DNA of 32,737 nucleotides from Gammaproteobacteria bacterium. Lineage in GTDB: Bacteria; Pseudomonadota; Gammaproteobacteria; SZUA-152. A program made the translations under genes and the position numbers. This document shows positions 4,163 through 30,825 of the stretch, piece by piece. The notes below the pieces were generated by a model. It ran no database searches, was not told the origin of the DNA, and worked only from the letters and a program-made list of their open reading frames with translations. Location of the stretch: the NCBI GenBank assembly GCA_011321815.1, contig DROS01000075.1, positions 1 to 32,737 on the forward strand, given 5' to 3'. How positions within the stretch are numbered: position 1 is the stretch's first letter; each line of letters opens with the position of its first letter.

Positions 4163-5530
4163 CTAATCAGCAAGAGGCAAACCGCTTGGCACCCTTTTCG
4201 GAACATTTTTTCGGATATCGACACTGTCTGGATCGGTCAAAGCATGCAAAAAGTCCATCAGGTACGCGATTTTCTTTTCACTGAGGTGTGTTTTTTCCAG
4301 CTCATTGGCATCCTTGATGTTCATCACCAACGCCGGATCATTCATGACAAGGCAATCAAGTGCATCAAGATCCGCCCGCGAAGGTAACCTGGGCTCCGTG
4401 CTGCAATCATACTCATCCAGTGATGCTTTCGGGTTAAGATGGTGACGCACTATGCCTTCCAATGTATCAAAAGCACCAGAATGACCCCAAGGCCCGGTCA
4501 AAGCAACATTCCTTAAAGGAGGTGTACGGAATTGATATCTTTGGTGGGCATCACCCGTCACCGCAGCACGCCCCATGTCTTCATACCCGCCTGATCCATG
4601 TCCTTTGCCCGGTCCGATCTGCGGCATCGCTATTGCGTGAAACGCCATATCAGTGAGATATGTACCACTATGGCAACCTGAGCACCCGGCTTTACCATAA
4701 AACAGTTGCATACCTTTTTTGGCTGATTTGCTCATGGCGTGTCTATCTCCCCGGAGAAAACGATCAAAAGGAGTGTTGTCGGCACGCCAGGCCACTCGCT
4801 CAAATGCCGATATTGCATTGGCTGCATGTGCATAGGTAATTTGATCGGCCGTAATGCCAAATGCCTCATTAAACATTGAAATATATTCCGGTATCTCTCG
4901 CAAACGATCAGCAAGCAGCTCCCAGACGCCGCCGGCACCGGCAAGATTCTCCATCGCCGCAGCATCAGCAACCGGGTTCTCCCCTGCCTGGCCTGCCATT
5001 TCAGCGGCGGAAGTCACAGGAAACATGGCCTGTGCCGCCAGAACGTTCTCAAGAATCAAAGGCAGATCATCACCGGCCGGGGTATCAAAACCGCTGGGCC
5101 GTGTGGCATCTATCTGCACACGTCCATCATGAAACAGCTTATCCATTTCAAGAGCACCCAGTGTAAATAACGGTGGCGCATTGCGCGGAACCCGTTCATG
5201 CACGGCATCCGCTCCCGACCCGGTGTCCCGAGCAACACCGAGACCACGTCCACCTTCACCCACAGGCAAAGACAAACCATCGCCAGTGTCAGTCAGGCCA
5301 TGATGACATGTTGCACAGGCAATATTTTTATTACCACTTAGAATCTTATCGAAAAAAAGAAACTTTCCCAGTGCAACCTTGGCCGCTGACGGGTTGCCAT
5401 TATCATAAAAATTACTGTCTACCGATGGACCTGGAAAATTATCCAGGTTATTTGCAATTACAGACTCACTCAACAAAACCAGACCTGTTATTGGGACGAT
5501 AAATGACACAATTGTTTTTTTAACTTTCAT
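4163..5530 (-). CDS. Di-heme cytochrome c peroxidase / MauG-family protein
   Basis: This is a periplasmic di-heme c-type cytochrome of the CCP/MauG family, which reduces hydrogen peroxide or carries out related oxidations. Residues 1-26 form a Sec signal peptide. The first heme site CATCH is at residues 72-76 and the second, CSGCH, near residue 281. The C-terminal stretch GPWGHSGAFDTLEGIVRHH is typical of the family. Length (455 aa) is normal. The ATG at 5530 has a GAGGGG ribosome site about eight bases upstream. The alternative ATG at 5536 would sit too close to it. The gene is transcribed alone towards the terminator at 4101-4140. The exact substrate cannot be told: classical CcpA, MauG and broader methylotroph or sulfur-oxidiser relatives share these motifs. 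Confidence 0.9.
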   Translation of the reverse strand: MKVKKTIVSFIVPITGLVLLSESVIANNLDNFPGPSVDSNFYDNGNPSAAKVALGKFLFFDKILSGNKNIACATCHHGLTDTGDGLSLPVGEGGRGLGVARDTGSGADAVHERVPRNAPPLFTLGALEMDKLFHDGRVQIDATRPSGFDTPAGDDLPLILENVLAAQAMFPVTSAAEMAGQAGENPVADAAAMENLAGAGGVWELLADRLREIPEYISMFNEAFGITADQITYAHAANAISAFERVAWRADNTPFDRFLRGDRHAMSKSAKKGMQLFYGKAGCSGCHSGTYLTDMAFHAIAMPQIGPGKGHGSGGYEDMGRAAVTGDAHQRYQFRTPPLRNVALTGPWGHSGAFDTLEGIVRHHLNPKASLDEYDCSTEPRLPSRADLDALDCLVMNDPALVMNIKDANELEKTHLSEKKIAYLMDFLHALTDPDSVDIRKNVPKRVPSGLPLAD

Positions 5531-5576
5531 TCCCATACCCCTCTATTATTATAAATTCAACAAATACCGCATAAAT

Positions 5577-5879: not shown

Positions 5880-6915
5880 CGGTAATACATTGCCGATATC
5901 CATGAGATCAATATGTTTAAACACTCACCCCTGAGCACACCACAACGGTAAAAACAAGTTCACATTAACAGGGTGCATTATTGGCGCGTACATTTATTCA
6001 GGCATTTTCATCTTGATCCTCCTCATGATTTATCGAATATTATGCGCAACGGAAGGCCGCCGGGATACACACGGGGCACCCTTCATCTAACATAATCTAG
6101 TACTCTTTCAAGGTAATAAATTATGGATTGTTATGACTTAAAATTATATTGACAGAACACTGTCAAATTTTATTATTATTCATAATTTTTCAGTGGCTCC
6201 TCTCCCTATCCTCCTGTGTATGCTATCCATAATTGAAAAATACGCAATCCATCCTACTTGTCCATTCTTGCTCTTTTTTAATACACAACACGGCTACCCC
6301 ATTAACGTTATTTTGTTTTTCTTCAATAGATTTACCGGGACAAGCAGATCCGTTGATTTCATCAGGGACACGAATTTACACCCGTCCATAATCGGAATCA
6401 TTCCTTCTCCTTTCGGAAGAAGATCAGAATAAGGGTACGGCGAAATCAATGTGTTGTTTCCAAAATGCCTTTCACCCAAAGAGAGTCAATGGGATAGCCG
6501 CTACACATGCATAAATAACAGATAAGCATATATTGAAAAACAATGATGGGATGCCACTCAGAATAAAGAGACATGAAAAAAGCGCTGTTTAATTTTTTGG
6601 GGAAACCGCCATACCTTTTCTATTTCTTGTCGATATTTTTTACACATTAACGGATCTGCGCACACAACAATTACAAATAGACAATAAAAAATATAATAAT
6701 TTCATAACATATTAATAACTTAGACAGATTCAAAATATCTTGGCATAAAAGTTGGATAAAACCCGCTGATCGCTGATCTTCTGTCTGATTGCCTTTCGAT
6801 CGTTTCTTTAAGATTTCACTAATTAGAATTTCCACGAGGTTGCCCTGAGCTTTTACAGGCACGTCTGGAATTCTGTAAATACACGAAAGACTGTACTAGT
6901 GAGGGTTAAAAGAAA
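5880..6915. other. AT-rich stretch of about 1 kb without a credible gene
   Basis: I see no convincing coding region here. Frames of 60-80 codons exist on both strands (for example 6193-6432 plus and 6671-6862 minus), but they lack ribosome sites and family-like sequence. The stretch contains the inverted repeat at 6149-6166 and presumably the promoter for the dockerin gene. It may hold decayed genes: the minus frame at 6671-6862 has protein-like stretches rich in Lys, Glu and Leu. Confidence 0.6.
6149..6166. promoter_or_regulatory. Perfect inverted repeat TTGACAG-N4-CTGTCAA
   Basis: Two perfectly complementary 7-base arms (6149-6155 and 6160-6166) are separated by aaca and set in AT-rich DNA, with attttattattatt following. 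It could be a regulator binding site, or a short hairpin terminator reading rightward. No adjacent gene decides between these. Confidence 0.35.
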
Positions 6916-18203: not shown

Positions 18204-18890
18204 GTGGCAACATCAATCACCGACGGCCAGCAACGGTTGATAAAACTTGTCGCTGTCATTGCATTGATTATCGCGGGATACTTTGTGCTTTCGCACAAAG
18301 GCATCATTGATTTCCTGGCTGATGGCGCCGCGCTCAAAGCCTGGATAGAACAGCTGGGTTTATTTGGTCCGCTGGTGATTATTGGCCTGCTGGCGCTGGC
18401 CATTGTGATGAGCCCAATCCCCAGCGCCCCTATCGCCTTAGTATCAGGTGCTGTTTATGGTCATTACCTGGGAACCCTGTACGTGGTGCTGGGTGCAGAG
18501 TTGGGCGCAATTATTGCTTTTTTTACGGCGCGCCTGTTAGGCGCTGACACCCTCAAAGGCTGGCTGGGGGATCGGTATGATAAATATATGCTGGGTTCAC
18601 AAACAACCTTGATGGGCATTGTATTTTTATCCCGTTTATTACCATTTGTTTCTTTTGATATGGTGAGTTACGCCGCTGGCGTGACCGCACTGACCTTTTG
18701 GCGATTTGCCCTGGCAACGCTTGCTGGCGTGATTCCCAGCAGTTTTTTACTGGCTCACTTTGGCAGTGAACTGGCCTCAGCCGAGGCCAGTAATATTGCT
18801 GTCACACTGTTGTTATTTGGTGCGCTCTCACTGGGAATCATACTCATCAAAAAAATATTTCCCGCTGCCTTTCGCCCAAAAAATCATTGA
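18204..18890 (+). CDS. TVP38/TMEM64-family (DedA-like, VTT domain) membrane protein
   Basis: The 228-aa polytopic membrane protein has the VTT/SNARE-associated Golgi domain: SPIPSAPIALVSGAVYGHYLGTL near residues 70-92, then ELGAIIAFFTARLLG, FLSRLLPFVSFDMVSYAAGV and LAGVIPSSFLLAHFG. Members of this superfamily are lipid scramblase-like or transport proteins. In bacteria TVP38 proteins often sit beside mercury or other metal-handling genes, but the function is not settled. The start is GTG at 18204, eight bases after a GGGAGG site. It is 17 bases downstream of the second cytochrome and its last seven bases overlap the end of the convergent HExxH gene, with no terminator between them. Confidence 0.85.
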   Translation: MATSITDGQQRLIKLVAVIALIIAGYFVLSHKGIIDFLADGAALKAWIEQLGLFGPLVIIGLLALAIVMSPIPSAPIALVSGAVYGHYLGTLYVVLGAELGAIIAFFTARLLGADTLKGWLGDRYDKYMLGSQTTLMGIVFLSRLLPFVSFDMVSYAAGVTALTFWRFALATLAGVIPSSFLLAHFGSELASAEASNIAVTLLLFGALSLGIILIKKIFPAAFRPKNH

Positions 18891-19378
18891 ATAAAAGTAT
18901 GACGAAAAACATAGACCCAGCCGCCCAACACCAGAAAAAGAGCAATGCCCCAGAAAATACTGCGGGGAATAAGGGAAATATCACGATACAGGCACTGATA
19001 GCCGGATTGCACGTGGCGAATGGTATGTATTTCTGCCAGTATTTCCCAGGCAGCAAAACTGCTGGCGACCACCCATAACCAGCCGATGACATCATTGGTT
19101 TCATTATGTATCATCACCAAAACAAGTATCACGCTGTACAAAGCCTCAAATGGCAATGCCTGCAAATGACCCATTTCGTGTTCGCTACATAACTTTTTAT
19201 AGGCATCCCGCGCCAATCCACGCCGCAGCAACCAATTGACAACCGGGGGATGCGGCAACAGAAAACGTCCAAAACCTGCGCGATGAAAATGCCCTGGTTC
19301 AACCTCCACGACAGCATCCAGGAAAAACCAGGTACGTTTTTTTATGCGGGCAGCCTGGTTTCTATTGAATACCGGCAT
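18884..19378 (-). CDS. Membrane protein with an HExxH motif, function unknown
   Basis: I do not recognise this family. The 164-aa protein has a soluble N-terminal part (about 1-70) and three hydrophobic segments (about 80-90, 98-113 and 138-158). Right before the first membrane segment lies CSEHEMGHLQALP, an HExxH zinc-protease signature at residues 67-71. E112, E116 and H118 in WEILAEIHTI could supply a third metal ligand. It might be a small membrane metalloprotease or a metal- or heme-binding protein. The motif alone does not prove protease activity. Its start overlaps the upstream lipoprotein cytochrome by 17 bases, which implies translational coupling, and its end overlaps the convergent TVP38 gene by seven bases. 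Confidence 0.75.
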   Translation of the reverse strand: MPVFNRNQAARIKKRTWFFLDAVVEVEPGHFHRAGFGRFLLPHPPVVNWLLRRGLARDAYKKLCSEHEMGHLQALPFEALYSVILVLVMIHNETNDVIGWLWVVASSFAAWEILAEIHTIRHVQSGYQCLYRDISLIPRSIFWGIALFLVLGGWVYVFRHTFIQ

Positions 19379-19760
19379 TACGCTGTTGTTGGCGGATATA
19401 AGCGATTATATGCCCAACATCCTCTGGAGAGACATTGCCGATGGGGGGCATATCCCCAAACCCCCAATGATGTTGCTTGACACCGTTTTTTACTGCCCAA
19501 TGAAACGTGATATCCGCATGGTGTGCGGCACGGTATATTTTGTCCACCAGCGGCGGCCCCTGCCCGGTTCCATGCCCTGCCGGGCCATGACACTGTGAGC
19601 AATTTGCCACAAACAGCGCCCTACCCTGTTGCGCATCGGCAACAAAATTCTTCCCGGGAAAATGCTGGCGTTGACGAATCTCTTCCGGGTCCAGGTTGTC
19701 GCAACTGACCAAAAACAGACTTACGGAAACCAGCAGGACAACATAATATTTTTTCAACAT
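19362..19760 (-). CDS. Lipoprotein monoheme cytochrome c
   Basis: The 132-aa product starts with a lipoprotein signal (lipobox LVSC, lipidated Cys20). It carries a CSQCH heme site at residues 54-58 and a likely axial methionine M104 in GFGDMPPIG. It is a membrane-tethered paralogue of the soluble cytochrome at 17261-17662, with the same order of conserved residues around heme and methionine. The gene is 12 bases after the HMA-like gene and overlaps the HExxH gene, within the apparent operon starting at 22167. A lipid-anchored and a soluble version of the same cytochrome could form a short electron relay. The ribosome site is weak. Confidence 0.88.
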   Translation of the reverse strand: MLKKYYVVLLVSVSLFLVSCDNLDPEEIRQRQHFPGKNFVADAQQGRALFVANCSQCHGPAGHGTGQGPPLVDKIYRAAHHADITFHWAVKNGVKQHHWGFGDMPPIGNVSPEDVGHIIAYIRQQQRNAGIQ

Positions 19761-19772
19761 AAAAATGAATTC

Positions 19773-20162
19773 TCATTTTCGACGGTTTGCATAAATATCA
19801 CTGGGGTTGCTACAGCAGGCCCCACCTTTGGATCTGGCATTGGTTTGGGCGTTTTCATCAAGATAACGATACCAGCCGGATTTTAACCCTGACCACCAGC
19901 CAGTGCCAGGTGGATAACCGGCATCAGTCAGCACTTTTTCAATGACACCAAAACCAATCTGCGCCGCATTATATGTTATCTTCAAACGCGCCCGTTTCAC
20001 ATCAACATTACTATTTTTTATGCCTTTCTGTTTTGCAAGGCAACGCTGCACTGCCTGCACATCATCCTGGTGATGTACCCCCTGTATCCGCAACGAACGA
20101 TGCACGATAAAAGCATCATCAAGCGCGTCAACGCCGGTTTTATTGGATGCTGTTTCGTTCAT
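19773..20162 (-). CDS. HMA-like ferredoxin-fold protein lacking CxxC, with Cys-Cys tail
   Basis: The 129-aa product contains a heavy-metal-associated-like fold at about residues 20-84: HRSLRIQGVHHQDD, VQRCLAKQKGIKNSNVDV, ARLKITYNA, IEKVLTDAGYPP. The usual metal site CxxC of the first loop is absent; GVHH (residues 29-31) stands there, so histidines may replace it. The C-terminal tail SKGGACCSNP carries adjacent cysteines (116-117). Proteins of this type occur next to cytochromes and flavoproteins in several sulfur-oxidising and metal-resistant bacteria, as far as I recall, without a proven function. It is preceded by the FAD oxidoreductase (42-base gap) and followed by the lipoprotein cytochrome (12 bases). 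A chaperone or regulatory partner role is an inference. Confidence 0.7.
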   Translation of the reverse strand: MNETASNKTGVDALDDAFIVHRSLRIQGVHHQDDVQAVQRCLAKQKGIKNSNVDVKRARLKITYNAAQIGFGVIEKVLTDAGYPPGTGWWSGLKSGWYRYLDENAQTNARSKGGACCSNPSDIYANRRK

Positions 20163-20204
20163 TGCCTTTGTATCCTGATTGTGACGCCTAAGGAGCGCGC
20201 ATAA

Positions 20205-21383
20205 CTATGTGACCGTTTTTCCACACCGGCATTGCACACAAACACATGTTTCGTCTTTACAGTATAGTTCGTCATAACGGCTTTTATAATACCGGTTTAA
20301 CCAAGGCAGGCTCAGGCGTTTGAAAAGAGAAAAGGCATAAAACCGATGTAAAAATTCACGTATATCTTCCTGTTGTGTTGCATAACGCAAAAACCAGCGA
20401 TACCCCCAGTTGGGAATGTGTCCGTAAAAAACCCGATTGACTACTGATGCCAGCAGTTGCTTGCTCAGGGCACTACGCCATTGCTGATTATAATCATTAC
20501 CATTCAATAAACTTTGCGCCGCCAGCACTCCTGACGTTATCGCATGGCGCATACCAAAGCCCCACAAGGTATCCTGAAATCCGGCCTGCTCACCCACTAC
20601 GGGATGTTGCCCATGCAACGCACTCATGGGAATACGAAAATTACCGACGCCGCCGTGCGGACGTAGGTTGCGCATACGCAATCCAACCTGTTTTTCAAAC
20701 GCGTCGACGGTGCGCTGTACATAAACATGCTGCCGTTTGAAATCAGTGAACATACAGCTTTTGACGGTGCCAATACCGTTCATGATGAGCAAATACGCAT
20801 AACCCTTGGGCGCCAGATTGTTGTCACAAATAACCCAAAAACCATTTTCCATATCAGTCTCAAAATGAAACCCCACCGCCATCGCATCAGCGGCCTGGGG
20901 ACCGGCGGCCAGTATTCCGGCCCCGTCAAGTTGTCTCAGGCGGCTGTTGAAGCGCACTTCAACACCCAGTTCCCGGGCCTGGTTTAACAGAGCGGTGTCC
21001 AGCGTGTCTGGCCCCGGGCCCCGTTCAACAGTATAAAACAAGGGCTTTTTGCTTTGAATTTTATAGGCCTTGCCCCAGGCATCAAAGGCTGTTCCATTAA
21101 TGCCGGGAAACATGGCAAATTCGGTAGTGATCCCCTGCCCACGCAGAACCTCCAGAACATCCTGCCTGTGGGACCAGTTTTCCAACCCCTGTAAATCGCC
21201 CTGAAAACGATACCCTACGCTTGGCTTGGCCTCATGCACAATAACAGTCCGCCCCGCTCGCGCAAGAGTAATGGCGGCTGCCAGCCCGGCAGGGCCTGCA
21301 CCGGCAATTTGCAAGGGTTCTTCCACAGGCAATGGATCGGTTGTGAAAGTCCGGGTATCAGCTTGTGCGTCAATCACCTTCAT
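20205..21383 (-). CDS. FAD-dependent oxidoreductase, geranylgeranyl-reductase-like, with Cys-rich tail
   Basis: The 392-aa flavoprotein begins with an FAD/NAD(P)-binding Rossmann motif, IAGAGPAGLAAAITLARAGR (about residues 26-45), followed by the VIVHEAK strand end. LLNQARELGVEVRFNSR and PVVGEQAGFQDTLWGFGMRHAITSG match the group-2 flavin monooxygenase / geranylgeranyl reductase architecture. The C-terminus adds a tail with five cysteines, CKDETCVCVQCRCGK, likely to bind a metal or iron-sulfur centre. This is unusual for the family. The start follows GATGAGG. It is second in the operon, 37 bases after the HD-GYP gene. The substrate is unknown: a polyprenyl or quinone double bond is suggested by the family, a cytochrome or metal partner by the context. 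Confidence 0.82.
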   Translation of the reverse strand: MKVIDAQADTRTFTTDPLPVEEPLQIAGAGPAGLAAAITLARAGRTVIVHEAKPSVGYRFQGDLQGLENWSHRQDVLEVLRGQGITTEFAMFPGINGTAFDAWGKAYKIQSKKPLFYTVERGPGPDTLDTALLNQARELGVEVRFNSRLRQLDGAGILAAGPQAADAMAVGFHFETDMENGFWVICDNNLAPKGYAYLLIMNGIGTVKSCMFTDFKRQHVYVQRTVDAFEKQVGLRMRNLRPHGGVGNFRIPMSALHGQHPVVGEQAGFQDTLWGFGMRHAITSGVLAAQSLLNGNDYNQQWRSALSKQLLASVVNRVFYGHIPNWGYRWFLRYATQQEDIREFLHRFYAFSLFKRLSLPWLNRYYKSRYDELYCKDETCVCVQCRCGKTVT

Positions 21384-21420
21384 ATCCTCATCCTTCTTTA
21401 TCCTTGGTTTCGACGGCGCA

Positions 21421-22167
21421 TTACGCTTGCGTCATCAGTGTGCATTTCACTTCAACCATCCCACGTAAAATATCCTCTTCAGCCAGAAAGGCCTCCACTC
21501 CCTGTGGGTCAAACTGCTGGCCACTCATGTTGATAATTTCTTTTTTGGCAACATCAAAAGACTGGGCTTTTCGATAGGGACGATCAGAGGTAATAGCATC
21601 CAATGTGTCAATAATGGCGAATAACCTTGCCCCCCAGGGAATGGCTTTTCCTTTCAGGCCTTGCGGATAGCCACCCCCGTCCCAGCGCTCCTCGTGGCAT
21701 AACACGATATCTGCGGCCTCACTCATAAACGGAATATCACGGATAATATCGTACCCACGTTGTGGGTGGCTGCGCATAATTTCCCATTCTTCTTTATTCA
21801 ATGACCGGGGATTCAACAAAATAAAATCGGGAATGGCGATTTTGCCAATATCGTGTAACAGTGAGCCCCAGTAGACTTGCTGGAGTGTGCTTTTATCTTT
21901 GCTGAATTGCCGCGCCAATACCTGGGTATGGCATGCAACCCGTTGTGAGTGCATTCCTGTTTCATGCTCACGGGCGTCCAGGGCTGCCGCCAGGGCTTCA
22001 ACCAGTGACAACTGGATTTCATCACGCTCGTGCTGAAAACGTTGGCCTGCCATATACCCCAGATAACACCCTTCACAGCAAAAAGCATCGTTATTATCCG
22101 TGATATGCACACCGTCAGTGATCGGTTTGCCACACCATAAACAATCCTTTTCAGTCTTAACCGCCAT
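21421..22167 (-). CDS. HD-GYP-type phosphodiesterase with N-terminal metal-binding zinc-ribbon-like domain
   Basis: The 248-aa product joins two parts. Residues 9-34 have CLWCG...FCCEGC, a four/five-cysteine module resembling the metal-binding domain at the N-terminus of some heavy-metal P-type ATPases. Residues about 50-235 are an HD-GYP domain: AREHETGMHSQRV, LLHDIGK (H105, D106), HPQRG and HEERWDGGGYPQGL (158-171), ending with DTLDAITSDRPYR. Such domains hydrolyse cyclic di-GMP or related dinucleotides using a metal centre. I choose the ATG at 22167, seven bases after GGGAG, over a TTG at 22170. It is the first gene after a MerR-type promoter at 22249-22280. I infer that metal level changes the enzyme's activity as well as its synthesis. 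Confidence 0.85.
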   Translation of the reverse strand: MAVKTEKDCLWCGKPITDGVHITDNNDAFCCEGCYLGYMAGQRFQHERDEIQLSLVEALAAALDAREHETGMHSQRVACHTQVLARQFSKDKSTLQQVYWGSLLHDIGKIAIPDFILLNPRSLNKEEWEIMRSHPQRGYDIIRDIPFMSEAADIVLCHEERWDGGGYPQGLKGKAIPWGARLFAIIDTLDAITSDRPYRKAQSFDVAKKEIINMSGQQFDPQGVEAFLAEEDILRGMVEVKCTLMTQA

Positions 22168-22202
22168 CAAAGGCTCCCGTTCAAAAACTTCGCGGACTTG
22201 TT

Positions 22203-22223
22203 GCCGGTAATAAATTTACCGGC
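22203..22223 (-). other. Leader hairpin ahead of the HD-GYP gene
   Basis: gccggtaa (22203-22210) and ttaccggc (22216-22223) form a perfect 8-bp stem with a five-base loop, about 35 bases before the start codon and inside the predicted leader of the MerR-controlled transcript. It could stabilise the message or affect ribosome access. Confidence 0.45.
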
Positions 22224-22248
22224 CCGGGTATACTCTCTTCGTGCGCAA

Positions 22249-22280
22249 AGTATATGACCTATGTGCTGATCACAGGTCAA
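22249..22280 (-). promoter_or_regulatory. MerR-type promoter/operator of the HD-GYP/FAD oxidoreductase operon
   Basis: On the minus strand TTGACC (-35, 22275-22280) and TATACT (-10, 22249-22254) are 20 bases apart, longer than normal and typical of MerR-activated promoters. Within lies ACCTGTG-N7-CATAGGT (22257-22277), a 7-7-7 dyad with one mismatch. It nearly equals the dyad of the merR/ATPase promoter at 30384-30404. It lies just after the stop codon of the membrane cytochrome gene and points at the HD-GYP gene. Confidence 0.75.
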
Positions 22281-22285
22281 GACCA

Positions 22286-23053
22286 TCATTCTCGGGTGTC
22301 AGGGCGGCATTTTAAAAACCAGATCTGGTAGAGAGAAATACTTATTTGAGCCCCCCACGCCACCCCCAGAAAGGCGCCAGCGATAACAACAATATAAGCA
22401 TAATGCGGGTCCCACTTGGTAAAAAACCAGGCCAGAATGTCGGTAAAAATAGCAATAAAAGGCACCAGGGTCAGCGTGTGTTGAAGCCAGGCGGGTAACA
22501 AAGCGAAGCGAAAAACAAGACCAATACCCAAGGCCACCAATCCAATGCCAAACAAGTGGATATGGGAAACTTTCATTAGGCTGTGTAATGAAACACCGGT
22601 ATCCACATTGGCAACAGGTTTGATTCCCTCGTAACTGGTAAAGTCGGGAACGGGCAACCCTGAAGCCGCGCTATGGCAGCCAAAACAACGTTCAGCGAGA
22701 ATCGGACGAATCTTACTGTCATAACCACTTTCCGGTGCGCCCGACTTCAACCACTCAACCACATGATGACGTTGTTCAATATCAATGTAGCTGGCCATGG
22801 GTCCACGCAGCGCCGACTCCAGGCGCGTACCACTGCGGTTACCATAATAATTTTCAGCAATATCATCCACCGATAGACCCGGCTTGCCGTCAATACCTTC
22901 AAAACTGGAATAAAGATAACTCAGGGCCATCAGATAGGCCACCCCCGCCAGCAATAAGAACGCGGTGTAAAGCAGCTTTTCATTGAGCGTACAATCATAG
23001 AACCGGCGCGGCCGGGTGGCTGGACAGACTTCCGTTTTTTGCTGTTCGCTCAT
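22286..23053 (-). CDS. Membrane protein with a c-type heme site
   Basis: The 255-aa protein has an N-terminal membrane segment (about 27-49). A periplasmic domain follows with one heme site CFGCH (residues 123-127) in KIRPILAERCFGCHSAASG, like the single-heme domains of planctomycete-type cytochromes. Three or four further membrane segments (about 160-245) follow, containing a His pair, KVSHIHLFGIG, that could bind heme or quinone. It may connect membrane quinols to periplasmic cytochromes. That is inference; I do not know a named family. It begins 110 bases after the lycopene-cyclase-domain gene, with an AGGAGA site, and its stop lies six bases before the MerR-type promoter on the same strand. 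Confidence 0.78.
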   Translation of the reverse strand: MSEQQKTEVCPATRPRRFYDCTLNEKLLYTAFLLLAGVAYLMALSYLYSSFEGIDGKPGLSVDDIAENYYGNRSGTRLESALRGPMASYIDIEQRHHVVEWLKSGAPESGYDSKIRPILAERCFGCHSAASGLPVPDFTSYEGIKPVANVDTGVSLHSLMKVSHIHLFGIGLVALGIGLVFRFALLPAWLQHTLTLVPFIAIFTDILAWFFTKWDPHYAYIVVIAGAFLGVAWGAQISISLYQIWFLKCRPDTRE

Positions 23054-25065: not shown

Positions 25066-25851
25066 TTATCTGTCATCCGGGCCTTCCACTTCAAATACAC
25101 ATACCCGGTAAAAATGGGAAAAACAGTGAAACTCATCTACCTGCCGGAGTGTTTTATTGTATGTCTTTGCATGACGCCGCAACACGGCAAACAGATCCTG
25201 GCGCCAGAAATTACCCAAAAAGGGTTCCAGATGTAATAACAAAATACGTATAGGCCACCAGCGACACAAAAAATGCTGGCGAGGGTATTGACCATATTCG
25301 GTAATCACCAGGCGCCCACCAGGCTGTAACACCCGCAGGGTCTCATCAAGCGTGTGTTCACGCGCCGCAGGTGGCAACTCATGCAACAGGAAAAACAGCA
25401 AAACAGTGGAAAATGCATCGTTGGAATAGGCAAGATATTCTGCATTCATACGTGCCGCCAGCAATCGGCTTTTTTCCTTATCGCCCAGTTTTTGACGGGT
25501 TGCACCCAGCTGTACATCCGCAACATCCATCAGATAGAGTTCATCGTCCTTCAATGATTTCATCAGCGAGGGTGTAAGACTCCCATACACACAGGTAAGC
25601 TGTAACAATCGACCCTTTGGCCGGTTTGTCATGCAGGCGCGCAGTGCCTGTGTTTTAAGTGTTTGGTACTGTCCAAAAAGAATGGCATTGATAATGGGCT
25701 GATGATCAAAGAACCATACGCCAAACCGCCACAGATAGGCCCACCAATAATGCCGGGCCAGATACTCCGGATGCGCATCAAGAAAATGCTGCCAGATTCC
25801 AGTAAGCGCAGATCTTTTTACCTTGTTGTTTTTGCGGTATCCCGGCGACAT
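25066..25851 (-). CDS. RquA-like SAM-dependent methyltransferase (rhodoquinone biosynthesis type)
   Basis: The 261-aa product is a class I methyltransferase-fold protein. HYWWAYLWRFGVWFFDHQPIINAILFG (about residues 34-60), RLLQLTCVYGSLTP (81-94), LYLMDVADVQL (105-115), VLLFFLLHELP (150-160) and VLQPGGRLVITEYG (174-187) match the pattern I know for RquA. RquA converts ubiquinone to rhodoquinone and replaces the normal Gly-rich SAM loop with a CVYG-type one. Rhodoquinone supports anaerobic fumarate respiration. The assignment rests on motif recognition; a general methyltransferase is the alternative. The ATG at 25851 follows GGAGG closely. It lies between a DUF5676 membrane protein and a patatin in the copper island, an unexpected place for a quinone enzyme. 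Confidence 0.6.
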   Translation of the reverse strand: MSPGYRKNNKVKRSALTGIWQHFLDAHPEYLARHYWWAYLWRFGVWFFDHQPIINAILFGQYQTLKTQALRACMTNRPKGRLLQLTCVYGSLTPSLMKSLKDDELYLMDVADVQLGATRQKLGDKEKSRLLAARMNAEYLAYSNDAFSTVLLFFLLHELPPAAREHTLDETLRVLQPGGRLVITEYGQYPRQHFLCRWWPIRILLLHLEPFLGNFWRQDLFAVLRRHAKTYNKTLRQVDEFHCFSHFYRVCVFEVEGPDDR

Positions 25852-27281: not shown

Positions 27282-29843
<2,562 letters not shown>

Positions 29844-29902: not shown

Positions 29903-30316
29903 CTATTTCTCCGTGTCCATTATCATGGATTGCTGTTTCAGCATTTGCTCCATCATGCCCTGCATCATGTCCATACGTTTCGACATCATTTCCTGACATT
30001 GTTCCGCGCTCATATTGTCCGGCATGCTGTCGCCCATCATGCCCTTCATCTTGCCCATCATGTCCTTCATCTTCGCCATGTGTTTGCGCATCAGCTCATG
30101 GCGCTTGTTTATGTCTTTTGTGGCATGGGCCTCTTCCATCATTTTTGACATGTCACCCATTTGACCCTGCATATCGCTCATGTCCATCATCGGGTTATCA
30201 TGCTGTCCAGCCATACCTTTGGCATGTTGTTCCCCTGAATACGCCAGAGGAACTGCCACCAATGCAAGCAGTAAAATGGACGTACCTAAAACAACCGGTT
30301 TGATTGCAAGCTTCAT
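29903..30316 (-). CDS. Small Met-rich periplasmic protein, probable copper binder
   Basis: The 137-aa product has a signal peptide (about residues 1-27, ending AYSG). The mature part is extremely methionine-rich: about 30 of 137 residues are Met, mostly in MxxM and MM pairs such as MMDMSDMQGQMGDMSKMM and MMEQMLKQQSMIM. One Cys occurs (SAEQCQEM). It is probably a helical copper buffer in the periplasm; similar unnamed proteins accompany copper ATPases. I place the start at the ATG at 30316, after AAAAGGAG, rather than at the upstream in-frame ATG at 30385, which would lie at the promoter. It is the first gene downstream of the MerR-type promoter and 59 bases before copA. Confidence 0.82.
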   Translation of the reverse strand: MKLAIKPVVLGTSILLLALVAVPLAYSGEQHAKGMAGQHDNPMMDMSDMQGQMGDMSKMMEEAHATKDINKRHELMRKHMAKMKDMMGKMKGMMGDSMPDNMSAEQCQEMMSKRMDMMQGMMEQMLKQQSMIMDTEK

Positions 30317-30376
30317 GACCTGATCTCCTTTTAATCTGCTTAAGAACATTTGACGTTTATTTATTTTCCACTGACG

Positions 30377-30407
30377 AGTGTACACCTATGGGCTGCTCAT
30401 AGGTCAA
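30377..30407 (-). promoter_or_regulatory. MerR-type promoter/operator of the copper ATPase genes
   Basis: On the minus strand TTGACC (-35, 30402-30407) and TACACT (-10, 30377-30382) are separated by 19 bases, the lengthened spacer typical of MerR-activated promoters. The spacer region holds a perfect dyad ACCTATG-N7-CATAGGT (30384-30404). The -35 box and half the dyad lie in the last codons and stop of merR itself, so the promoter is embedded at the end of the regulator gene. It drives the Met-rich protein and copA, with a leader of about 55 bases. Confidence 0.88.
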
Positions 30408-30825
30408 CCTTTGACGCTGACAAAGTCACCGATTCAATAAGATGACAAACCGAATCGCCATCGGGTTGTCCATTGGGCATGTTTTCCCAGAGCGACAGCG
30501 CATCTTCCATACGTTTTTGCAACGTATTCAACGCATCCAGCTTGGTTTTATTTTCGACAATCCGGCGCTGCATCAGCTCACGCACCTGAGGGCAGGGGGA
30601 GCCCCCCGCCATGGAGTGATTAAGAATTTCACCAATTTCCGCCAGGGTAAAGCCCAGGCTCTGCGCCTGACGAATGAAACGCAACTTGGTAACGTCCTCA
30701 CCGGTAAATAATTTGTACCCATTATGGGGATTCCGCTCGGGCTTCAGCATACCAATGTGCACGTAATGACGTACCGTATCAGGCGTGACACTTGTCCGCT
30801 TCGCCAATTCACTGACTGTAAACAT
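30397..30825 (-). CDS. MerR-family metal-responsive regulator
   Basis: The 142-aa regulator has the MerR winged-helix N-terminus (FTVSELAKRTSVTPDTVRHYVHIGMLKP, residues 2-29; NGYKLFTGEDVTKLRFIRQAQSLGFTLAEI) and a long dimerisation helix (about 78-115). C78 stands at the start of that helix, where Zn/Hg/Pb sensors have Cys and CueR has Ser. The metal loop has C127 (DSVCHLIE) but no second loop Cys, so the sensing site is not a plain CueR one. Context (copper ATPase, CopB) argues for copper, the residues leave this open. It starts ten bases after the propeller gene with an AGGAG site and probably controls the dyads at 30384 and 22257. I give no symbol for that reason. Confidence 0.88.
   Translation of the reverse strand: MFTVSELAKRTSVTPDTVRHYVHIGMLKPERNPHNGYKLFTGEDVTKLRFIRQAQSLGFTLAEIGEILNHSMAGGSPCPQVRELMQRRIVENKTKLDALNTLQKRMEDALSLWENMPNGQPDGDSVCHLIESVTLSASKVDL

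Follow-up and report, generated by a model that had tools for sequence, protein, structure and literature searches.

A candidate MerR-switched five-gene operon in the copper island of a gammaproteobacterium

The window analysed here, 32,737 nucleotides in length, is contig 75 (DROS01000075.1) of the 3.58 Mb draft genome of a Gammaproteobacteria bacterium (GCA_011321815.1; G000 among our genome labels). Within a copper island, five minus-strand open reading frames follow a MerR-type promoter (Table 1). They encode an HD-GYP protein with a Cys-rich start, a flavin adenine dinucleotide (FAD) protein with a five-Cys end, an HMA-like protein without CxxC, a lipoprotein-like cytochrome c, and a membrane protein with a HEMGH motif. 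The distances between them are 37, 42, 12, and −17 bases, and a computed site scan listed no terminator-like sites in these gaps. The five genes probably share a single transcript. Sigma-70-type matches in the operon region do not exceed the chance number (8 seen, 10.3 expected); hence, additional promoters in the operon are neither shown nor excluded. A first-pass annotation of this DNA had listed the same genes, gaps, and MerR-type promoter, and the coordinates, families, and promoter sequence bear it out. The island is arranged in the order CopB, beta-propeller protein, MerR, 160-residue protein, CopA-type ATPase, ICMT-type methyltransferase, YHS protein, DUF5676 protein, RquA-like methyltransferase, patatin, lycopene-cyclase-like protein, CxxCH membrane protein (22286-23053), and the five operon genes. 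Seven genes separate copA from the HD-GYP gene. Beyond the operon lie a VTT protein and two cytochromes, which are convergent with the five genes, and then CusCBA.

Table 1 Features of the operon and its presumed regulator in the window
Feature	Position	Read 5' to 3'	Strand	Characteristics
MerR-type promoter and operator of the operon	22249..22280	22280-22249	-	TTGACC-20-TATACT, dyad ACCTGTGATCAGCACATAGGT
HD-GYP phosphodiesterase (putative)	21421..22170	22170-21421	-	N-terminal Cys-rich, metal-binding-like domain (CxxC...FCCEGC)
FAD protein	20205..21383	21383-20205	-	geranylgeranyl-reductase-like fold, C-terminal CX4CXCX2CXC tail
HMA-fold protein	19773..20162	20162-19773	-	no CxxC, C-terminal GGACCSNPSDIYANRRK tail
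Cytochrome c	19362..19760	19760-19362	-	mono-haem, lipobox-like signal
Small membrane protein	18884..19378	19378-18884	-	HEMGH motif, near-orphan
copA, copper-type P-type ATPase	27282..29843		-	YHS and HMBD domains; gene partner of the HD-GYP family
Second MerR operator	30377..30407	30407-30377	-	3' end of merR, before 29903-30385 and copA; TTGACC-19-TACACT, dyad ACCTATGAGCAGCCCATAGGT
merR, MerR-family regulator	30397..30825		-	Cys79 and Cys127; presumed switch of both operators

MerR-regulated promoters are recognized by a spacer of 19-20 bases and a dyad between the −35 and −10 elements, and the promoter of the operon has 20 bases and a dyad. Four TTGAC-type sites with a long spacer occur in the window, two of which (22280-22249 and 30407-30377) have one dyad in common; the site at 6149-6179 has an unrelated dyad and that at 17077-17048 has none. 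By hand count, the operator before the HD-GYP gene and the operator behind merR are identical at 18 of 21 bases and differ at 3. When the draft genome was scanned with a pattern covering both operators at up to three mismatches, no third place was found, and the reversed control gave 0; an extra output line was the copA site matched on the opposite strand. Among 11 genomes whose merR ends were read by eye, 10 have an operator of this form at the 3' end of the gene, and the 11th (G008) has it before merR. Upstream of the HD-GYP gene, seven genus members (own genome included) share the same upstream gene, and six of them (G000, G002, G003, G005, G006, and G007) retain, by eye, the −35 and −10 elements and the 20-base spacer. 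In G009, the HD-GYP promoter is replaced by a different sequence. In G004, G015, G019, G020, G021, and G023, the HD-GYP gene lies behind copA without the seven intervening genes of the window, and the 190 bases before it showed no operator of this kind. The most economical interpretation is that, where genes have intervened after copA, MerR retains control of the HD-GYP operon through the second operator. As the operator is shared, the island's MerR protein is predicted to bind at both places, and its control of the operon by metal is well supported at the sequence level. The common operator and the surrounding copper island also bear out the metal response assumed in the first-pass annotation.

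HD-GYP protein: The domain matches PF13487 (E 3.8e-36, 124.8 bits, cut-off 27.2), and the HDIGK and GYP motifs are invariant in 13 aligned orthologues. The start codon (TTG or ATG) is uncertain. The N-terminal Cys domain has a Cys pattern like that of the CcoI/FixI-type family PF12156, with a score below the cut-off of 27 (E 0.0033, 18.6 bits). The top NCBIfam model for the protein is a NosR family and likewise lies below its cut-off. The HD-GYP site of PmGH has eight metal ligands, according to the available text of PMC4159591, and by-eye mapping finds seven of them kept (E68, H72, H104, D105, H133, H157, and D186 in the numbering of alignment A4). With Glu in place of the eighth, phosphodiesterase activity is likely, though not certain. 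Of 24 genomes of the order, 13, own included, have a full-length orthologue (61-92%), and two more have end pieces. A search of 274 genomes of the class at E 1e-60 found a full-length protein only in G000, G013, and G144 and a copy without the N-terminus in G084. The copA gene lies upstream on the same strand, within about 6 kb, at 13 of 14 loci (12 of the 13 in the order set and G144), a count that excludes the two contig-end pieces (G005 and G007). In the exception, G013, the contig ends about 600 bases upstream of the HD-GYP gene.

FAD protein: The C-terminus with its five Cys reads CKDETCVCVQCRC. The best-scoring NCBIfam model, TIGR02032 (geranylgeranyl reductase), gives 44.4 bits against a cut-off of 158.8. 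The predicted structure (pLDDT 90) is closest to 3oz2, a digeranylgeranylglycerophospholipid reductase (Z 31.9, root-mean-square deviation (rmsd) 3.1, 326 residues), followed by 3atq and relatives, which are geranylgeranyl reductases (Z 29.4-29.7), FixC (7koe, 27.8), and halogenases (about 24). This Z-ranked comparison drew on Foldseek's top 1000 chains, and no MerA-like reductase is among its best 50 rows, which is not proof of absence. The models point to a geranylgeranyl-reductase scaffold and do not show membership of that enzyme family. Strong relatives (best E ≤ 1.1e-42) occur in 23 of 96 genomes, own included. The 80 named loci kept of 106 confirmed come from Proteobacteria and other phyla, with identity down to 33% (alignment A2, from which L113 was dropped for a stop in the range; in alignment A1, L019 was omitted and L011 and L013 were trimmed). 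The Cys tail is found as CX3-5CXCX2C in 51 of 72 full-length members and in 58 when looser forms are allowed, 7 partial proteins being left out; three of the 14 tail-less members (L033, L034, and L072) have differently spaced Cys. In the alignment of 16 members, C210, C380, and C385 are invariant.

To describe the company of the FAD gene, we counted neighbours within 10 kb at 63 non-redundant loci flanked by 4 kb or more on each side (44 of 107 genes with less were left out) and in 20 control regions, using neighbour profiles that were built from the FAD loci themselves. A copper-type P-ATPase (copA) is present at 34/63 loci and in 1/20 controls. The ICMT-type methyltransferase (27/63), DUF5676 (26/63), YHS (24/63), HMA-like (16/63), and CusA (13/63) genes are found in 0/20 controls, and cyclopropane synthase is found at 18/63 loci and in 1/20 controls. 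Any HD-GYP gene is found at 4/63 loci and in 2/20 controls, and a cytochrome of the window's kind in 0/20 controls. One control region, L268, holds copA, HD-GYP, and cyclopropane synthase by chance and was retained. The copA, ICMT, DUF5676, and cyclopropane synthase neighbours are nearly all on the FAD strand. Any metal marker is present at 47 of the 63 loci, and any of four lipid markers at 41. Seven plasmid records hold a FAD relative; in the four whose neighbours were inspected, it lies beside cyclopropane synthase, FabI, or cardiolipin-synthase-like genes. Cultured environmental bacteria with a FAD relative include Hyphomonas, Novosphingobium, and Halomonas sp. KO116. At 5 to 9 of 79 loci, the FAD gene is accompanied by subunits of 2-oxoacid:ferredoxin oxidoreductase and a GltD-like protein, as might be expected if reduced ferredoxin were the electron donor. 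MerR-type promoters of a third form (TTGACCTGTAGGCTRCATTCAGGT) were noticed in L061 at 15712, about 0.8 kb before the FAD gene of G003, and in L053 at 1359, before a ferredoxin-oxidoreductase subunit gene in G002. On the second FAD contig of G000, the operator type of the G003 FAD gene is absent at up to three mismatches. Selenocysteine in the FAD protein was considered and rejected: the TGA codons of G015, G019, and G022 precede the conserved start, and the TGA of G021 is intragenic in what looks like a broken copy. FAD copies with an in-frame TGA, apparently broken, are found at L010 (G021) and L235 (G153).

HMA-like protein: The score against PF00403 is 24.4 bits (cut-off 24.8), and the protein ends with a C-terminal Cys pair. 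The model (pLDDT 77) has the HMA fold (TMt 0.87 to 1osd, 0.92 to 2qif, and 0.94 to 6ff2). A CxxC metal site is absent from the window protein, its nine closest relatives, and all 30 loci of the genome search. The tail GACCSNPSDIYA is conserved with small changes among close relatives; distant relatives have an N-terminal YHS domain and end with His or Cys, and a YHS-like start is present at 20 of the 30 loci. Among the 274 genomes, at E 1e-20, the protein occurs in 16 of 24 with a FAD gene and in 14 of 250 others (Fisher p 2.3e-12), and by family in 12 of 19 with a FAD gene (p 2.4e-7, the total being taken as 158 families, the highest number seen). These p values are overstated because the species are related. 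Some rows of the HMA profile stem from named FAD loci that may overlap the 274 genomes; without the profile-contributing genomes, the counts are 13 of 21 and 12 of 248 (p 1.6e-10). FAD and HMA-like genes lie on one contig within 17.5 kb in 12 of the 16 genomes and on separate contigs in four.

Cytochrome c and HEMGH protein: The cytochrome matches PF13442 (E 4.5e-13, 49.8 bits, cut-off 27), has a CSQCH haem motif, and, by eye, a lipobox-like LFLVSC. The HEMGH protein is small and hydrophobic and has no curated family; no Pfam or NCBIfam peptidase family matched, and the motif stands alone. Its frame is coding: the G009 relative is 78% identical with 40 synonymous and 32 non-synonymous changes over 147 codons. 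The start codon is uncertain; the match to G009 begins at residue 12. The gene is present in 2 of 96 genomes (G000 and G009), and among the 274 genomes of the class no relative was found besides the window's own. In L061 (12670-13473), the G003 cytochrome is followed by a 267-residue HEFAH protein at the place that the HEMGH protein has in the window.

We favour, with moderate confidence, the reading that the five genes form a MerR-switched accessory operon of the copper island, which lowers cyclic di-GMP (c-di-GMP) and modifies the membrane as metal rises. Gene order, operator, and families are read from the sequence and the folds from models; the steps that follow are correspondingly conditional. 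The island's MerR would switch on the five-gene transcription unit via the second operator copy, with copper as the probable inducing metal. At high metal, the HD-GYP protein would probably degrade c-di-GMP, a step suggested by its active-site sequence; metal binding may be the role of its Cys-rich N-terminus. Judging by its fold and neighbours, the FAD protein probably belongs to the geranylgeranyl-reductase superfamily and reduces membrane lipids or isoprenoids. The CxxC-less HMA protein is probably its metal-binding adaptor or regulator, which would agree with fold and co-occurrence. As envelope proteins, the lipoprotein cytochrome c and the HExxH protein would be local additions. The five may act jointly. 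A bolder form of this idea, possible but doubtful, is that an undescribed flavoenzyme family of bacterial metal islands, belonging to the geranylgeranyl-reductase superfamily and controlled by metal via its Cys tail and the CxxC-less HMA partner, remodels membrane lipids or quinones under copper while a copper-switched HD-GYP protein simultaneously resets c-di-GMP.

Several observations weigh against the accessory-operon reading. The operator pattern was derived from the two sites themselves; the scan therefore reports the absence of others. A strict scan finds the operator behind merR in only four of ten genomes (G000, G003, G004, and G009) and before merR in G008, and at the merR-end sites that it missed, the dyad or the −10 element is weaker. 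Before the HD-GYP gene, the dyad is clear in four of six genomes (G000, G002, G005, and G007) and worn in G003 and G006. Against the curated models ZntR, MerR, CueR, and CadR-PbrR, every score of the MerR protein is below the cut-off; as no metal-specific cut-off is passed, copper is deduced from the neighbouring genes. In the HD-GYP protein, H277, the second His of HHE, is Glu in 14/14 members (HEE for HHE), and substitution of this His with Ala abolished activity in PmGH (available text of PMC4159591); two further HD-GYP copies in the own genome carry HHE. The dinucleotide signalling proposed in the first-pass annotation holds at the sequence level, with orthologues following copA, but is called into question by this Glu. 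Foldseek's own ranking of the FAD model has the reductases first and halogenases interspersed. Geranylgeranyl reductases have the catalytic motif PxxYxWxFP and a catalytic Cys47, as given in the available text of PMC10821996. Residues 192-199 of the FAD protein read PxGYAYLL, in which P and Y are kept and W, F, and P are missing, and no invariant or near-invariant Cys lies in the first 200 residues of the 16 aligned members. No metal marker is present at 16 of the 63 FAD loci. Further, the 1e-20 threshold for the HMA-like protein was picked after viewing the list, and at the preset 1e-6 the protein is present in 18 of 24 genomes with a FAD gene and in 64 of 250 others (p 2.3e-6). The order HD-GYP, FAD, HMA-like, and cytochrome c is found in only four genomes, own included (G000, G004, G006, and G015), in G006 across two contigs with 151 identical end bases.

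Such breaks in order would be expected if the genes were chance neighbours, that is, unrelated cargo of a mobile metal island with nothing in common but transcription. G002, G003, G009, and G023 have cytochrome c behind the HD-GYP gene and neither a FAD nor an HMA-like gene between the two; in G003, a FAD gene occurs about 4 kb beyond. The rarity of the HExxH gene (2/96 genomes) and the plasmid-borne FAD relatives also agree with this idea. We rejected the five genes as a conserved unit, since their order breaks within the genus and the HExxH gene is so rare; the possible single undescribed five-gene module of the first-pass annotation is not supported, and conservation of gene order, which it had named as a check, fails for the five genes and holds for pairs. 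The parts of the operon have separate histories: pairs of its genes recur in other copper islands, and the exact five-gene set does not. However, the pairs conserved in several families (copA with HD-GYP, and FAD with HMA-like) and the persistence of the operator point to selection, and we consider chance neighbourhood unlikely.

The FAD protein could also be a metal reductase. MerA is a metal reductase with an HMA domain, and in a similar manner the FAD protein would reduce metal held by the HMA protein or its own Cys tail. FAD and HMA-like genes do travel together, and the tail is frequent under both the strict and the looser count. Yet the best 50 rows per fold comparison are geranylgeranyl-type reductases, FixC, halogenases, and flavin hydroxylases or monooxygenases, and the HMA partner lacks CxxC at every locus (0/30), which makes this role rather improbable. 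A redox module, in which the flavoprotein hands electrons to the lipoprotein cytochrome c and they then enter a respiratory or metal-reducing chain, could invoke FixC, an electron-transfer flavoprotein-quinone oxidoreductase and the next fold after the reductases, and the several cytochromes near the operon in the window. We regard it as very unlikely. Counting only the window's kind, a cytochrome is found near the FAD gene (within 10 kb) at 6/63 loci, and in G002, G003, G009, and G023 no FAD gene separates HD-GYP from cytochrome c. By eye, the cytochrome has a signal peptide and the FAD protein has none; hence, the two are expected on opposite sides of the membrane. Flavoprotein-to-cytochrome electron flow, at which the first-pass annotation hinted, is not favoured, given the geranylgeranyl-reductase-like fold and the metal pumps and lipid enzymes that are the frequent neighbours.

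Other genes of the window deserve mention. The 160-residue protein between merR and copA (29903-30385) has no curated family above cut-off and has relatives (34-70%) at the same position. The CxxCH membrane protein (22286-23053) has no curated family either; it (74-79%) and the RquA-like gene (66-68%) co-occur in islands around 2-oxoacid:ferredoxin oxidoreductase and FAD genes. The RquA-like gene itself (25066-25851) encodes a methyltransferase near the rhodoquinone enzyme RquA, inside the copper island, with 168.7 bits to NF038261 (cut-off 175). Its relatives in G003 and G005 reach 178.6 and 176.2 bits, and above-cut-off matches are found in 4 of 57 genomes. A MauG-like di-haem protein is encoded at 4163-5536 (TIGR03981, 267 bits, cut-off 340).

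On the accessory-operon reading, c-di-GMP would be tied to a metal-sensing MerR switch, a connection that can be tested. The flavoprotein family occurs in metal islands of several phyla, and no assigned reaction was found for it. Copper islands are commonly interpreted in terms of pumps and chaperones, and the frequency of lipid enzymes among the neighbours suggests that defence against copper may include changes to the membrane. A literature search by titles and abstract openings gave no description of the five-gene set, the flavoprotein family, or a copA-linked HD-GYP protein.

Compared with known systems, the island shares with MerR/CueR-controlled copA and Cus islands the MerR operator with a 19/20-base spacer, a CopA-type ATPase, CusCBA, and CopB. 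It differs in the second operator, which is placed to drive the HD-GYP, FAD, HMA-like, cytochrome c, and HExxH genes, and in a regulator that cannot be assigned to a single metal. Like the c-di-GMP phosphodiesterases of the PmGH type, the HD-GYP protein has HD, GYP, the Lys, and, by eye, seven of the eight metal ligands, whereas the second His of HHE is Glu and a CcoI-like N-terminal Cys domain replaces the receiver. The FAD protein has in common with the archaeal geranylgeranyl and digeranylgeranylglycerophospholipid reductases (3atq and 3oz2) the fold over residues 19-367, the FAD-binding GxGxxG, and P and Y of the motif. It departs from them in lacking W, F, and P of the motif and the catalytic Cys, in its added C-terminal Cys tail, and in its occurrence mostly in bacterial metal islands. 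The HMA-like protein has the fold of the CopZ/MerP chaperones (about 1 Å rmsd over 67-68 residues) but no CxxC, an extra C-terminal helix with a Cys pair, and a YHS-like N-terminus in 20 of 30 relatives.

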